Shown here piece by piece: positions 2,220 through 9,609 of a stretch of 56,258 nucleotides of DNA. Numbering within the stretch: position 1 is the first letter of the stretch; every line of letters begins with the position of its first letter. Position numbers and translations under genes: made by a program. The notes beneath the pieces are model-generated. The model was given only the letters and a program-made list of their open reading frames with translations. It was not told the DNA's origin and ran no database searches. This stretch comes from an uncultured Bacilli bacterium (GTDB lineage Bacteria; Bacillota_I; Bacilli_A; RFN20; CAG-826), in the NCBI GenBank assembly GCA_944372115.1, contig CALVYH010000007.1:1-56258 (forward strand), given 5' to 3'.

Positions 2220-3275
2220 ATGAAAAAAGTTTTATTAGCATGTGCATTATTAGCAAGTTGTTCATTATTAGCTACTTCTTGTGGCAATACTCCAAATCAA
2301 CCTGATAATCCAGACATTCCAGATCAAGGTGAAAAACCAGGCGATGATGATAATCCAAATGAAGATGATAAACCAGGTGATGATACATTTGATACATCAA
2401 GAAATGTAAATCTTTATTCAAGAGAAGCTGGTTCAGGAACAAGAGAATGTTTCTTTGAAGGAATTGGTTATGGTGATGTAGCTAAAGAAGATAACTGGGA
2501 AGAGGGAGTCACCGTTTCTTCTCCAACATCAAATGGTGATATGATGAGCCAAGTTGGTTCAGATCCTTATGGAATCGGTTATTGTTCATTAGATGGAATT
2601 GGTGAAAATAAATCAATTAAAGCTCTTTCTTATGATGGAATTACTCCTACAGAAGAAACTGTTATTGATGGATCATATGCATTACAAAGAAATTTTAATT
2701 ATGTAATTAGAGATTATAAATCAACTACTGTTGAAAATGGTGAAGCAAGAAGCCAAGTCGCTCATGCATTTATCGAATTCTTCTCAACTGTTGAAGGCCA
2801 AGTTCAAATTCAATCAGCTGGTGGAATTGTTACAGAAGCACCAACAAAAACATTTGAAGATTTAATCGAAGAATATCCTATTTTAAGTGGAAGTGAAACT
2901 GTTCAACTTTATACATGTGGTTCAACTTCAGTTGAAAAAGTATTAAATGCTTCTATCACATATTTTACAAACAATATTCCAAATAAAAATATTACAATCA
3001 GTGCTAGCCAAACTGGTTCAGGTGCTGCAGTTACAGGAATTACTGAAGGAAATAGTGGAACATTAGCTGATATTGGTTTCTTATCAAGAGAAATTAATGA
3101 TGGAGAATTAGCAAAATTAACTGATGAAAATATTCACGGTGCAATGTGTGTTGATGCTGTTGTAGCAATTGTTAATAGCAAAAATACTTCTGTTAGTGAC
3201 ATTAATGGCGAAACATTAACTTCAATTTATAAGGGCGAATTAAAAACTTGGGCTGATATTGTTAAAGCTCTTTAA
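2220..3275 (+). CDS. pstS: Phosphate-binding lipoprotein PstS, halves in swapped order
   Basis: Extracytoplasmic phosphate receptor of the Pst importer. Residues 1-21 are a lipoprotein signal (LATSC, lipidated Cys21); 25-60 form an acidic D/E/P linker. Residues 62-204 match what is normally the SECOND half of PstS: the SREAGSGTR phosphate loop (67-75), GIGYCSLDGI, VQIQSAGGIV. Residues 228-350 match what is normally the FIRST half: CGSTSV (233-238), TGSG (265-268), ADIGFLSRE (283-291), VDAVVAIVN (311-319), LTSIYKGELKTWADI (333-347). Both phosphate-contact segments are present once, so the protein looks complete but circularly permuted, not truncated. It is first in the pst operon, behind a Pho box. 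Family assignment is firm; the permutation is read directly from motif order. Confidence 0.9.
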   Translation: MKKVLLACALLASCSLLATSCGNTPNQPDNPDIPDQGEKPGDDDNPNEDDKPGDDTFDTSRNVNLYSREAGSGTRECFFEGIGYGDVAKEDNWEEGVTVSSPTSNGDMMSQVGSDPYGIGYCSLDGIGENKSIKALSYDGITPTEETVIDGSYALQRNFNYVIRDYKSTTVENGEARSQVAHAFIEFFSTVEGQVQIQSAGGIVTEAPTKTFEDLIEEYPILSGSETVQLYTCGSTSVEKVLNASITYFTNNIPNKNITISASQTGSGAAVTGITEGNSGTLADIGFLSREINDGELAKLTDENIHGAMCVDAVVAIVNSKNTSVSDINGETLTSIYKGELKTWADIVKAL

Positions 3276-3296
3276 TAAGTAGTTTTGATTATTTTT

Positions 3297-4316
3297 ATGG
3301 AGAATTTTGTTAAAGTAAAAACCAAAAATAGTCGAAGCAAAAGAAAAATAATAGTAGATAAAATAGTACATCTACTATTATTTTTTCTTGTTGCAATATG
3401 CGCAAGTATCATAATTATTTCAATAATTTTCATACTTATTAAAGGTATTCAACCATTTGTTGATAATTATGGTAGTGATGGAAAATTTATTAATCAAAAT
3501 TTAGGTTCTTTTTTTACAAATTCCACTTGGACATATGATGGAAATGGTGGAGCAATGTTTTTAGTTTTAACAACTATTTATGTTGTTTTATTATCTTTAA
3601 TAATTAGTGTTCCTACATCAATTTTTACTGCATTATTTATTGCAAAAATTTCACCTAGAGGAATAAAAGATGTTATAAGAACCGCAATTGATTTATTAGC
3701 AGCAATTCCATCAGTTATTTTTGGTCTTTTTGGTAAAGGAATTATTAATCCTTTTGTTTATTCTATTGCTGAAGCTTTAAAAATTCAAACCTTTGCAGGT
3801 TCATCTATTTTAAGTGGGGCATTAATTATTGCAGTTATGTCAATTCCTACAATGACTACATTATCAATAAGTGCTATCAATGCAGTTGATCAATCGTTAA
3901 TTAATGGTTCTCTTGCATTAGGCGCTTCAAATGCTCAAACCAATATGAAAATTATAATACGTAGCGCAAAATCAGGTATTTTTGCTGGAATTATTCTTGG
4001 AATTGGTAGAGCTTTAGGAGAAGCTACCGCTATTCAAATGGTTATTGGAAATAGTACTAATGGTTTAACTTTCTATAATATTTTCCAACCAGGTTCTACT
4101 ATTGCTTCTGCTATGTTATCTGGTATTAATGAAGCTAGCGGATTTGGTTATGATATTCGTTTTTCACTCGGTATCGTTTTAATGGCGGTTATTGTTATTA
4201 CAAATTTAATTTTAACTGCAATTAAAAATTATAATCGTGATAAAGATGGACCAATTAGAAAATTTATTAAAAAAATTGGAGGATTATTAAAAAATGAAAG
4301 AAAAGAATCCAATTAA
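3297..4316 (+). CDS. pstC: Phosphate ABC transporter permease PstC
   Basis: Inner-membrane permease partner of PstA. Six predicted membrane segments begin after a basic N-terminus (KTKNSRSKRK). The EAA-type coupling loop reads [17 protein letters not shown], followed by GIILGIGRALGEA, typical of PstC. I start at ATG 3297 (MENFVKV); a TTG at 3285 in the same frame is the alternative, and neither has a clear ribosome site. It follows pstS by about 20 nt and overlaps pstA by 23 nt, so translation is probably coupled. Confidence 0.9.
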   Translation: MENFVKVKTKNSRSKRKIIVDKIVHLLLFFLVAICASIIIISIIFILIKGIQPFVDNYGSDGKFINQNLGSFFTNSTWTYDGNGGAMFLVLTTIYVVLLSLIISVPTSIFTALFIAKISPRGIKDVIRTAIDLLAAIPSVIFGLFGKGIINPFVYSIAEALKIQTFAGSSILSGALIIAVMSIPTMTTLSISAINAVDQSLINGSLALGASNAQTNMKIIIRSAKSGIFAGIILGIGRALGEATAIQMVIGNSTNGLTFYNIFQPGSTIASAMLSGINEASGFGYDIRFSLGIVLMAVIVITNLILTAIKNYNRDKDGPIRKFIKKIGGLLKNERKESN

Positions 4317-5559
4317 TTTTACTAAACTTATCGAAAGAAATATTAAAAATAGAAAATATAAAGATGGCTTGACCAATGGTTCAACTTTCTTATTTTCGTT
4401 ACTTTGTGTTGTTGTTTTATGTTTAGTTATCGGCTACGTTATTTTTACTGGTGCTAATTATTTAACTCCAGGATTTATTACAAGTAATTATTCGCAATCC
4501 TCAGTAGCTTTAAGAACAAGTAAAGACTTTGTTTTTGATGAAAATGGTTATGATTATAGCGATTTAGAAAGATTTGAAGATGTTTCTTATAGTGAAAAAT
4601 GGGGTATTGGGCTTCAATATGGTAAAGATAATAATCAAAATAATGTAATTTATGTTGTTCAAATTAGCGAAAATTCACCATTTAATGAACTTGTTAGAAG
4701 AGATGATGGAACAAATTTTAAAATTCCAACAGATATGTATTTATCTTATATTACCGTTCAAACTGAGTTAGGAACATATAAAACTGCATTTAGTGATGAT
4801 GGAATTGATAATATGATTTCAACATTAGATAGCGCAGTTAGTATTTATGATTCAAATTTTTTAAGTTTAGGTGGAGGAATTTCAACCTCATTAATTACAA
4901 CATGTTGGTTAATTTTATTTACGTTAATCTTCTCTCTTCCTTTAGGAATAGGAGGAGCAATATATTTAGGATATTATGCTAAAGATAATAAAGTTACTAG
5001 AATAATTAGATCTTTGGTTGATATGTCGAGTGGAATTCCTTCAATTATTTTTGGTCTTGTCGGTGCTGCAATTTTTATTCCTTTTGTTGGAAGTATGACA
5101 GGAACAACTGGTGGAAATATTTTTACTGGTGCATTAACAATGACTCTAATTTTACTTCCAACTATAGTAAAAACAGTTGAAGAATCAATTAAAACAATTC
5201 CTAAAAGTATGATTTCAGCATCTTTAGCTTTAGGTGCATCAAATACTGAAACAATATTTAAAATTGTTTTGCCTAATTCAATTGATGGTATATTAAACGC
5301 AGCTATTTTAGGAATTGGTAGAACAATTGGTGAATCTGCTGCTTTAGTATTTGCTTTAGGAACATTTATAACAGCTGCTCCAAGTTTTACATCAGGAAAT
5401 ACTACACTAGCTGTTCATATTTGGTATATTCTCGCAGGAGAATATCCAGCTTATGAACAAGCATGTGCTATCTCAATAATGATTTTCTGCGTTGTTGTAA
5501 TATTGTCGCTTTTAACAAAGTTGATTAATTATTTATTTAAAAGAAAAAGGGAGAAATAG
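4294..5559 (+). CDS. pstA: Phosphate ABC transporter permease PstA with inserted outer domain
   Basis: 421 residues against roughly 280-300 for usual PstA. The first membrane segment is about 31-52. The conserved core resumes at SLGGGIST (about 191) and carries the coupling loop [17 protein letters not shown] and [12 protein letters not shown]. Between them, residues about 62-188 are an extra extracytoplasmic segment. Within it WGIGLQYG...[15 protein letters not shown] (about 103-133) resembles the core of a PDZ domain (glycine loop, then a strand ending NSPF); this is a by-eye resemblance. The start is set by GGAGG at 4279-4283, inside pstC. The insertion would face PstS. Confidence 0.9.
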
Positions 5560-5564
5560 ACTTT

Positions 5565-6413
5565 ATGAAAAACCCATTTAAATTTAAAAAAGAAATTGTA
5601 AACGAAAAATTATTTAACAATGATACCTCACTTCCTCATAGCCAAGAATATCCTGATGAAGAAGTAATATTTAGTGTTAAAAATTTTCAATTTTATTATG
5701 ATAATGGTGCAAAGCATGCATTGAAAGATATTAATTTAGAAATTTTTAAAAGAAAAGTCACTGCCTTTATCGGACCTTCTGGATGTGGTAAATCTACTCT
5801 TTTAAGATGCTTTAATAGAATGAATGATTTAATTGATGGGAATAAAAAAGAAGGTGAAATTCTTTATAAAGGTACTCCAATTGATACATTAAATACAATT
5901 CAGCTTAGAAGTAAGGTCGGGATGGTCTTCCAACAACCAAATCCATTTCCAATGAGCATTTATAACAACATCACTTATGGTCCAAAATGCCAAGGATTAA
6001 GAAATAAAAAAGAATTAGATAAGATAGTTTATGAATCTTTAAATGATGTCGGACTTTATGAAGAGGTAAAAGAACAAATTTCTCATTCTGGAACTTCTCT
6101 TTCCGGAGGCCAACAACAAAGATTATGTATTGCAAGATGTATTGCAATGTCTCCTGATATAATTTTAATGGATGAACCTACTAGCGCTCTTGATCCTATA
6201 GCAACATTAAAAATAGAAGAATTAATTAGAAAATTAAAAGAAAAATATACTATCGTAATTGTTACTCATAACATGCAACAAGCCGCAAGAATTTCGGATT
6301 ACACTGCATTCTTCATGCTTGGAGAATTAATTGAATTTAATAAAACAGAAGATTTCTTTGCTCATCCTAAAAATAAAAAGAGCGAAGATTACATTACTGG
6401 AAAATTTAGTTAA
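5565..6413 (+). CDS. pstB: Phosphate ABC transporter ATPase PstB
   Basis: Cytoplasmic ATPase that powers the PstC-PstA channel. Walker [11 protein letters not shown]-loop [15 protein letters not shown] (the FPMSI stretch is characteristic of PstB), signature LSGGQQQR, Walker B IILMDEP, switch histidine in VTHN. There is a roughly 35-residue N-terminal extension before the nucleotide-binding domain. Starts 5 nt after pstA with GGGAG upstream. Confidence 0.95.
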
Positions 6414-6457: not shown

Positions 6458-7090
6458 ATGGACTTAACAAATTTAGAAATTGATGTTGTAGAAATGTCAA
6501 AAAGAGTCAAAGAATCATTAAACTATGCTTTCTCATTCTATTTTGACCCTAATAATAGCCAAAAAGATATCATTAATGATGAAGTCATTAATGAATATGA
6601 AAGAAAAATTGAAGGCATTTGTTTATTGAATATTTTAAAAGAAAGACCTTTTGCTACTGAACTTAGAAAATTAACTGGTTATTTTAAAGTTTGTGAAGAT
6701 TTAGAAAGGCTTGGAGATCATGCTGAAGATGTTTGCTGGGTAAATTCAAATTTAGCTAAATATAAAGATACAATGAGACTTCCAAAACTTGATGAAATGA
6801 TTAATAAAACTTTAATAATGGTTAATAAAGCTATCGATTCATTAATAAATTTTGATGAAGACGAAGCAAAAAAAATCATTAAAAGTGATGATGAAATTGA
6901 TAAACTTTATTTAGAGATTCTTTCTTTATTACCATCTTTAAAAAAAGATAATAGATTTGATGATGAGTTTACAATTTTTACAACACTTTTAGTAAAATAT
7001 GTAGAAAGAATAGCTGACCACGCATCAAATGTCGCTGAATGGGCTATTTATATTAAAAGCGGATTTTATAAGGACAGATATATTATTTAA
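6458..7090 (+). CDS. phoU: Phosphate signalling protein PhoU
   Basis: 210 residues, all-helical, two PhoU repeats. Each repeat keeps the metal-cluster pattern E(R)xxDxxxN/D: DLERLGDHAEDV and YVERIADHASNV. PhoU links Pst occupancy to the sensor kinase and restrains uptake. It lies 44 nt after pstB with an AGAGGAAAA ribosome site and is followed almost at once (3 nt) by the response regulator, as in many Gram-positive pho operons. Confidence 0.9.
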   Translation: MDLTNLEIDVVEMSKRVKESLNYAFSFYFDPNNSQKDIINDEVINEYERKIEGICLLNILKERPFATELRKLTGYFKVCEDLERLGDHAEDVCWVNSNLAKYKDTMRLPKLDEMINKTLIMVNKAIDSLINFDEDEAKKIIKSDDEIDKLYLEILSLLPSLKKDNRFDDEFTIFTTLLVKYVERIADHASNVAEWAIYIKSGFYKDRYII

Positions 7091-7093
7091 ACT

Positions 7094-7777
7094 ATGAGCT
7101 ATATTATTTATTCATTAGAAGATGATAAAGAGATTTCCAGAGTTATTAATTTAATTCTTTCAAAAAACGGTAACGAAGTTATCTCTTTTTATGATGCTAC
7201 TTCTTTTTTTAAAGCTTTTGATTCTTTAAAACCAAATATGGTTTTGCTCGATTTAATGCTTCCTGATATGAAAGGCGAAGATGTTTTGAAAAGAATTAGA
7301 GAAGATAAAGCTAATAAAGACATCGAAATTATTGTTTTAAGTGCTAAAAACTCAATTATTAGTAAAGTAGATATGCTTGATTTAGGTGCTGATGATTATA
7401 TTGCTAAGCCATTTGAAGTTTTAGAACTTATTTCTAGAGTAAATGCTAAAAAAAGAAGACACAATGAAGAAATTATAAAATATCAAGATTTATCTATTTA
7501 TCCACTTAAATATGAAGTTTATAGAAATAATGAAAAAATTGATTTAACAACTAATGAATTTAAAATTCTTACATACTTAATTAAAAATAAAGAAAGAATA
7601 ATTTCAAGAGATGAACTTTTTAAAGCATATTGGGGTGAAAATATGGCTAATTTTGAATCGAGAGTTATCGATGTTCATATAAAAGGAATTAGAGATAAAC
7701 TTGATCCAAATAATAAAGATCATTATATTGTTACAATTTATGGTGAAGGTTATAAATTGAAAAACGAAAATCAATAA
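7094..7777 (+). CDS. phoP: PhoP/PhoB-type response regulator
   Basis: 227 residues, OmpR family. Receiver domain 1-120: acidic pair EDD (9-11), phospho-acceptor Asp in VLLDLMLPD (about 53), switch SAK, and conserved Lys in DDYIAKPFE. The winged-helix DNA-binding domain (about 130-225) has LTTNEFKILTYL and a recognition helix around SRVIDVHIKGIRDKL. The likely target is the Pho box at 2114-2140. It starts 3 nt after phoU without its own clear ribosome site, so it is probably translationally coupled. A terminator follows at 7786. Confidence 0.9.
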   Translation: MSYIIYSLEDDKEISRVINLILSKNGNEVISFYDATSFFKAFDSLKPNMVLLDLMLPDMKGEDVLKRIREDKANKDIEIIVLSAKNSIISKVDMLDLGADDYIAKPFEVLELISRVNAKKRRHNEEIIKYQDLSIYPLKYEVYRNNEKIDLTTNEFKILTYLIKNKERIISRDELFKAYWGENMANFESRVIDVHIKGIRDKLDPNNKDHYIVTIYGEGYKLKNENQ

Positions 7778-7902: not shown

Positions 7903-9609
7903 ATGAATAAAAAACAAATTATTATTCAAGCATTTATCTCTTTATTTATTTCATTAGTTGTATTGCTAACATGCTTTACTTCTACTTATTTAATAAGTGA
8001 AAATGAAGCTAAAAATTCTTTGAAAGAATATGCTTTAACAATTTCTTCTCTTTATAAAGATGAAACAAATAACGACGATTTATTATTACGTTTTGATAAT
8101 GTAAATAATTTAAGAATTACAATTTTAAAAAATGATTCAAATACAGTTATTTTAGATATAAATAACATTGATAATTCGATCACTAGCGAAGAAAATAGAT
8201 TAGGTGAATTTTTAAATAATATTGATAAATTTTATATTAAATCTTCACTTACTTTAAATAGCGATGTTTTATATTATGTCGCCGAAAATAACAACGGATA
8301 TTTAATTAGAGTTGGTCAACTTAGAAGCCAAATAATAAATTCTTCAATTTATGTTTTAATTATTGGGGGAATTTTATTAATAATAATTAATGTTATTTAT
8401 TATATTTATCTATATTTTTTATATAAAAAGAATTTTAAACTACTTAAAAACGAAGTTAATAAATTATCTGATTTAGTAACTACAGATCCATTTTTATATC
8501 GAGAAGATGGCTTTTTAGCTCTTTCTTCTTTAATTGATGATACAAGAAAATTAATCATTAAAAATATTGATGATTTAACATTAGAAAAAGAAAAAATTGA
8601 ATATATTATTAATGTAATTGAAGAAGGAATCATCGTTTTAAACAATAAAAAAGATGTTATTTTAATAAATAATTTTTCTCTTAAAATCTTAGAAACAAAA
8701 AAGGAAAATATCATAAATAAATCATATAAATTTATGCTTTTTCCTCTTTCTTTTGAAGAAAAAATTAAAGAACTAGATAAAAATGAAGAAAATCATATTG
8801 ATTTGGTAATCAAAATTAATGGAAAAGACTACGATTTTGTATTTTCTAAAATTTTCGTAGATGATAAATTTAATAAGCAAAATGAAAATGATAAAAATTT
8901 TATTTATACGATTTTAATTAACGATATTACTTATATAAATCAAACAATAGAAATGAAAAAAGAGTTTTTCCAAAATTCATCACACGAATTAAAATCGCCT
9001 TTAACTTCAATTATTGCTTATAGCGAAATGATTAAAGATGGTTTATTAAACGATGATAAAGAAATTAAAGATGCAAATCTTCATATTTATAATTCTTCTA
9101 AAAGAATGAAAGATTTAATTCAAAATATGCTTTATCTTTCTTCATTAGAAAATAATGTTATTAAACATGAAAAAATAAATATTAATGTTAATGATCTTAT
9201 AAATAAAATCATCGATGATAACGAAATTAAAATTAAAGAAAAAAATATTATTGTTAATATTAATAAATATGATGATTTAACTTTAAATATGGAAGAAAAT
9301 GATGCTGATATTTTATTTAGAAACCTTATTTTAAATGCTATTAATTATGTATTAAAAGATAATGGAAAAATTGAAATATCGATTTATAAAGATAAAATTT
9401 CAATTAAAGATAATGGTATAGGAATTAAAAAAGAAGATATTCCTAATATATTTACACGTTTTAAAAGAAGCAACGAAGCTATTAAAGTTAATAGTGAAGG
9501 CAATGGATTAGGTCTTGCAATAGTTAAGCATGTTTTAATTAAATATAATTATAAAATTGAAGTGTATTCAGAATTAAACAAAGGAAGTGAATTTATTATT
9601 ACTTTTTAA
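7903..9609 (+). CDS. phoR: PhoR-type sensor histidine kinase
   Basis: 568 residues. Membrane helix about 7-30, extracytoplasmic segment about 31-147, second helix about 148-172, a linker, then a PAS domain (about 230-345, EEGIIVLNNKKDVILINN). HisKA: SSHELKSPLTSI with the phosphorylated His. ATPase boxes: N LFRNLILNAINYV, G1 IKDNGIGI, F FTRFKRS, G2 GNGLGLAIV. Architecture is as in Gram-positive PhoR. Ribosome site AAGGAAA. It follows a terminator, so its level may be set apart from the pst genes. Confidence 0.9.
   Translation: MNKKQIIIQAFISLFISLVVLLTCFTSTYLISENEAKNSLKEYALTISSLYKDETNNDDLLLRFDNVNNLRITILKNDSNTVILDINNIDNSITSEENRLGEFLNNIDKFYIKSSLTLNSDVLYYVAENNNGYLIRVGQLRSQIINSSIYVLIIGGILLIIINVIYYIYLYFLYKKNFKLLKNEVNKLSDLVTTDPFLYREDGFLALSSLIDDTRKLIIKNIDDLTLEKEKIEYIINVIEEGIIVLNNKKDVILINNFSLKILETKKENIINKSYKFMLFPLSFEEKIKELDKNEENHIDLVIKINGKDYDFVFSKIFVDDKFNKQNENDKNFIYTILINDITYINQTIEMKKEFFQNSSHELKSPLTSIIAYSEMIKDGLLNDDKEIKDANLHIYNSSKRMKDLIQNMLYLSSLENNVIKHEKININVNDLINKIIDDNEIKIKEKNIIVNINKYDDLTLNMEENDADILFRNLILNAINYVLKDNGKIEISIYKDKISIKDNGIGIKKEDIPNIFTRFKRSNEAIKVNSEGNGLGLAIVKHVLIKYNYKIEVYSELNKGSEFIITF

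Follow-up and report, generated by a model that had tools for sequence, protein, structure and literature searches.

In a 56,258-nucleotide stretch of DNA from an uncultured Bacilli bacterium (contig CALVYH010000007.1 of assembly GCA_944372115.1; hereafter the window), we identified a gene that very probably codes for the membrane-anchored receptor PstS of a Pst ATP-binding cassette (ABC) importer, in a form whose chain is circularly permuted: the C-terminal half of PstS (residues 59-206) stands ahead of the N-terminal half (residues 226-348). An initial annotation, made from the sequence alone, had proposed a natural permutation of this kind, and swapped profile matches, a rotation test, a two-lobed model and collinearity with the crystal structure 4H1X bear it out. 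The motif order on which that proposal leaned can be read in the open reading frame (ORF): SREAGSGTR (residues 67-75) and VQIQSAGGIV (195-204) precede GSTSV (234-238), TGSG (265-268), ADIGFLSRE (283-291) and YKGELKTWADI (337-347). A linker of ~20-25 residues connects the former termini, and the new opening of the chain separates the TWADI helix from the SRE strand. The gene is composed as follows:

2220-3275, + strand: permuted pstS, an intact ORF without internal stop coding for a 351-amino-acid lipoprotein
2220-2282, + strand: signal peptide and lipobox (LATSC, Cys21), visible in the sequence itself; C21 is near-invariant in 56 relatives
2283-2387, + strand: disordered acidic linker between lipid anchor and core, residues 22-56; low predicted local distance difference test score (pLDDT), length variable among relatives
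2394-2717, + strand: segment C1, residues 59-166, the canonical third quarter with the phosphate loop SREAGSGTR; from hidden Markov model (HMM) segment analysis and conservation
2742-2837, + strand: segment C2, residues 175-206, the canonical C-terminal helix and GGIV strand; from HMM segment analysis
2838-2894, + strand: linker from the old C-terminus to the old N-terminus, residues 207-225; from sequence, its homologue being a C-terminal tail in apparently re-permuted relatives
2895-3263, + strand: segment N, residues 226-348, the canonical N-terminal half from GSTSV to TWADI; from PF12849, TIGR02136, phmmer and segment analysis

Profile and sequence comparisons agree on this order. TIGR02136 matches as two stretches, one of which places model positions 30-156 on residues 220-348, and PF12849 likewise matches as separate stretches, one of them at residues 225-346. 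In phmmer searches against the Protein Data Bank (PDB), the canonical PstS structures 4q8r, 4gd5 and 1twy match as two stretches in swapped order, whereas 4h1x matches as a single collinear stretch (59-346 to 7-263, E 1.5e-23). The rotated-sequence search suggested by the initial annotation was done with an HMM built from 19 canonical sequences. The native-order protein gives two domains (79.2 and 65.3 bits), the protein rotated at residue 223 gives a single domain of 147 bits, and shuffled sequences, as a chance control, give at most 11.7 bits. By TIGR02136, PF12849 and the canonical HMM alike, PstS homology is present in both halves. The window protein does not count as a canonical PstS, since it has no full-length match in N-then-C order above the curated cut-off.

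Fold, phosphate site and known counterparts

An AlphaFold2 model built with 56 relatives has two lobes and a mean pLDDT of 88.9, with values >90 for most of the core. Its low-confidence part is the acidic linker (about residues 22-56), from which the initial annotation had the receptor hanging: the linker is real, but it is neither conserved nor ordered, and it is much shorter in several close relatives. Foldseek returns 4h1x as the top match (E 3.9e-23), and VIA-align superimposes the model on it collinearly over 252 residues (residues 61-348 on chain 35-291; Z 28.9, root-mean-square deviation 2.0). The canonical chains 4gd5, 4q8r, 1twy and 4lat align to the model essentially via the C-half only, as expected when sequential aligners meet a permutation. 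The best collinear structural match that is not a PstS is OpuAC.

Across all topological classes, the permuted one included, the phosphate-loop arginine (R-x-x-x-SGT), the SGT itself, GS-x-S and SR show 95-100% conservation. The ligand set is thus kept whatever the order, and chain connectivity alone differs. With its three-dimensional form and phosphate ligands kept, the permuted receptor should bind phosphate by closing around it and hand it on to PstCAB as other PstS proteins do. GSTSV reads GSDSV in L086, L087 and 23% of permuted sequences, which places an Asp beside the phosphate site; judging from the sequence, a change of specificity is possible in these proteins.

Structure 4H1X is PstS2 of Streptococcus pneumoniae (SP_2084). 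Like the window PstS, it runs from C-half to N-half and is cut before the SRE strand, and the two are ~33% identical in the structural alignment. As the window model is collinear with it, a permuted PstS has been in the PDB since 2012. The initial annotation had known of no permuted PstS, and this part of it does not stand: the order and the cut recur in 4H1X, and the permuted order is common in Bacilli. The permuted PstS itself is already in the PDB, and the newer part of the present work is the topological turnover among its relatives. We found no paper describing the PstS permutation or citing 4H1X among the open-access papers searched, paywalled work not being searchable. In a tree of 58 rows, for which each copy was rotated to the order N-C1-C2 (LG+C20 with posterior mean site frequencies, PMSF; 1000 ultrafast bootstraps), 4H1X falls outside the window’s 100%-supported clade, alongside several Bacilli sequences and the one from Treponema.

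Pneumococcal Pst2, the transporter of the permuted PstS2, is the second Pst system of its host and is implicated in inorganic phosphate uptake; deleting any of its components suppresses the defect of a phoU2 mutant (PMC4913102). By analogy, an ordinary role as Pst phosphate receptor seems likely for the permuted PstS. Canonical PstS proteins (Clostridium perfringens 4Q8R and 4GD5, Vibrio cholerae 1TWY and pneumococcal PstS1, 4LAT) have both halves homologous to those of the window protein and share its phosphate-loop motifs and operon partners, but the order of the halves is reversed. Treponema pallidum TpMglB-2 (Tp0684), a tethered substrate-binding lipoprotein of an ABC system, is circularly permuted in nature and functions as its canonical relatives do; the authors of that study connect the permuted topology with membrane tethering (PMC4990184). 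It works alike without being a strict relative: it has a type I sugar-binding fold (Cluster B), a different cut and an unrelated family, whereas the window protein is a PstS in sequence and fold, of type II, and is not of the TpMglB-2 type (Cluster Bc). Circular-permutation relationships among the type II glycine betaine- and molybdate-binding proteins were detected structurally in the CPSARST study (PMC2395249); their substrates differ and identity to the window PstS is low, and we do not claim membership for it.

Distribution of the permuted order and alternative explanations

Relatives surveyed for the same order proved numerous. Among 395 sampled Bacilli genomes, 174 contain a match and 113 a full-length collinear permuted match, spread over many families. 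PstC is encoded next to 61 of the 63 permuted single-copy loci scored, a count that covers the scored loci from L162 upward. A phylum-level sample gave no match outside the window’s own class. Occurrence outside Bacilli comes from two plasmid records, of Monoglobus (Clostridia) and Treponema saccharophilum, in which a permuted pstS heads a pst operon. Given the many Bacilli genomes and these plasmids, the permuted receptor is widespread. Both annotated permuted receptors, those of the Monoglobus and Treponema plasmids, are named only “substrate-binding domain-containing protein”. The present results correct this annotation: the permuted receptors are PstS although they score below the curated cut-off, and with such scores and generic names the number of phosphate importers in gut Bacilli has probably been underestimated. 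At the locus L090 of genome G246, two different permuted pstS genes stand side by side as separate ORFs of 302 and 335 amino acids.

Three other explanations of the window gene can be weighed against a permuted PstS. The window’s genome is a 24-contig draft, and a canonical pstS might have been rearranged in a draft metagenome bin, by assembly or by annotation; the same order in so many genomes, some of them single-contig, on both plasmids and in 4H1X already refutes such an artefact, to which we give practically no credence. Permuted proteins are known to arise by gene fusion, so the first half could derive from a different binding-protein family joined to the N-terminal half of PstS. This is very improbable, as the two halves match complementary parts of the same PstS models and half-trees agree on sister groups where these are resolved (L037 is not, in the C-half tree). 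Equally improbable is that the halves pair between two molecules in a domain-swapped dimer with no permuted monomer fold: half-domain proteins can swap and the sequence alone is compatible with it, but the single-chain model is confident and collinear with 4h1x. The initial annotation had named a first half from another family, a canonical PstS elsewhere and a fold without two lobes as grounds for giving up its proposal. Instead, both halves are PstS, two lobes are predicted and no second PstS, canonical ones included, was found in the window’s genome (1.25 Mb, 96% complete). The other weak PF12849 match in this genome, considered as a second PstS, is a LysR-type regulator and was rejected.

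Some observations do weigh against the reading of the window protein as a permuted PstS that evolved and works as described here. Its TIGR02136 score is 122.6 bits against a curated cut-off of 206.6, as expected because the match is split. In part of the family another residue, often His, stands in place of the ADIG Asp, and specificity could therefore vary. Phosphate binding and transport by the window protein are what we infer. As to the number of permuted origins, the approximately unbiased (AU) test does not reject placing the classical canonical rows on one side (p-AU 0.57), and free trees put 4H1X among canonical rows.

Tandem arrays, a second cut point and canonical-order relatives

Tandem duplication with subsequent trimming is a textbook model of circular permutation, and its intermediates are rarely observed. 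In-frame double PstS arrays occur in six genomes or records (L083, L084, L085, L086, L087 and L191), and a triple array (L082/L173) consists of a 910-amino-acid ORF in which one lipoprotein signal precedes three complete permuted PstS units; pstC comes next. The copies are 79-96% identical, R-x-x-x-SGTR and GS-x-S are intact in each, and PstC is found next to every double and triple array. The L085 array lies on a 1.88 Mb contig, and misassembly is therefore unlikely. By segment analysis, a second natural cut point with the order C2-N-C1 is present in L037 and L088, whose chains start at the C-terminal helix and end after the RPF strand; phmmer likewise shows L088 as N-C1 with C2 shifted to the front. 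Within the permuted clade there are also two groups of canonical order, group iii (L034 and L224-L226) and group iv (L035, L036, L038 and L039), and phmmer gives a full-length canonical match for L224.

The topological series was drawn from genomes that are often drafts and from trees of ~250 columns. In the 58-row tree the permuted clade has a support of 100/100. The canonical rows of group iii nest with the permuted L032, L049 and L051 (100/96), those of group iv with the permuted L044 (100/100), and the AU test rejects a tree that unites all canonical rows (p-AU 0.0003). L088 groups with the permuted L106 (99/97) and L037 with the window’s own clade (91/95). Trees of the N-half and of the C-half agree on the sister groups of iii, iv and L088.

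All eight nested canonical proteins (8/8) end in a C-terminal tail of 21-25 residues that resembles the linker between C2 and N in their permuted sisters (as in SWDSILEANPKFKEICR compared with KWSDILKKAENTDVKEIC), whereas classical canonical proteins end 2-8 residues after C2, where C2 was detected. The typical permuted mature N-terminus, FDTSKKI or FDTSKQI, sits inside the N-C1 junction of L225 and L226, and an FDTSK-type segment is also found at the junctions of the triple array. PstC of the nested canonical operons is 43-53% identical to that of the window, against 28-37% for classical canonical operons. The nested operons thus have a PstC of the permuted lineage, which points to reversion inside that lineage and not to import of a classical pstS. 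Based on these sequences, groups iii and iv appear to have returned to canonical order from the permuted state.

It could be argued that the nested canonical proteins kept the ancestral order while many of their neighbours became permuted independently, without any reversion. Permutation clearly can recur, and the linker-like tail could equally be an ancestral C-terminal tail; on its own, the tail does not fix the direction of change. We consider this history unlikely, as it requires the same cut to have arisen independently many times, against two reversions, and as the strong nesting, the rejection of a single canonical clade, the internal FDTSK segment and the PstC identities all speak against it. 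Nesting, PstC and internal FDTSK jointly support the direction of reversion well, though not beyond doubt.

Most likely, the permuted order arose when pstS was duplicated in tandem and in frame and the outer halves were then trimmed away; the original termini would have been joined by the ~20-25-residue linker and the chain opened just before the strand leading to the SRE-x-GSGTR phosphate loop. The fused double and triple copies, together with a second cut point and the apparent return to canonical order, form the series expected from tandem duplication and trimming. Bacilli PstS is probably topologically fluid, with tandem arrays as a reservoir for repeated trimming and at least two returns to canonical order that carry fossils of the permuted state. 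If this is true, the family offers an unusually complete natural series of circular permutation by duplication and deletion, reversal included: the original order, arrays of fused copies, a first and a second cut point and what appear to be reversions all occur in one operon, with PstC as an independent marker of descent. Bacilli PstS would then be a testable system for why and how often protein termini move.

Operon setting in the window

The permuted pstS is the first gene of a pstSCAB-phoU operon. The neighbouring features are:

2114-2140, + strand: Pho-box-like direct repeats TTTACA-TTAACA-TTTACA, ~80 bases upstream of pstS
3285-4316, + strand: pstC, permease; TIGR02138 above cut-off, annotated start uncertain (ATG at ~3297)
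4294-5559, + strand: pstA, permease with an extracytoplasmic PDZ-like insertion (4447-4869); TIGR00974 186.7 bits, cut-off 193.45
5565-6413, + strand: pstB, ATPase; TIGR00972 above cut-off
6458-7090, + strand: phoU; TIGR02135 130.3 bits, at cut-off
7094-7777, + strand: PhoB-like response regulator; TIGR02154 E 1e-50, below curated cut-off
7903-9609, + strand: probable PhoR-like sensor kinase; H-box SSHELKSPLTSI and ATP-binding motifs seen in its translated sequence

The Pho-box-like signal is weak: the two-repeat pattern has 1 match in the window, against 0.26 expected, and the third repeat was read directly from the sequence.

The insertion in PstA, of ~140 residues and extracytoplasmic, has no Pfam match and folds confidently in AlphaFold2 (pLDDT 87). 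Structure comparison places PDZ domains in all of its top matches, the best being 1ihj (Z 9.2 over 90 residues). It is present in all 39 aligned relatives of the lineage, the apparently re-permuted ones included, and absent in the classical canonical L234. Considered as a possible partner of the permuted order, the insertion was dropped because the re-permuted operons retain it.
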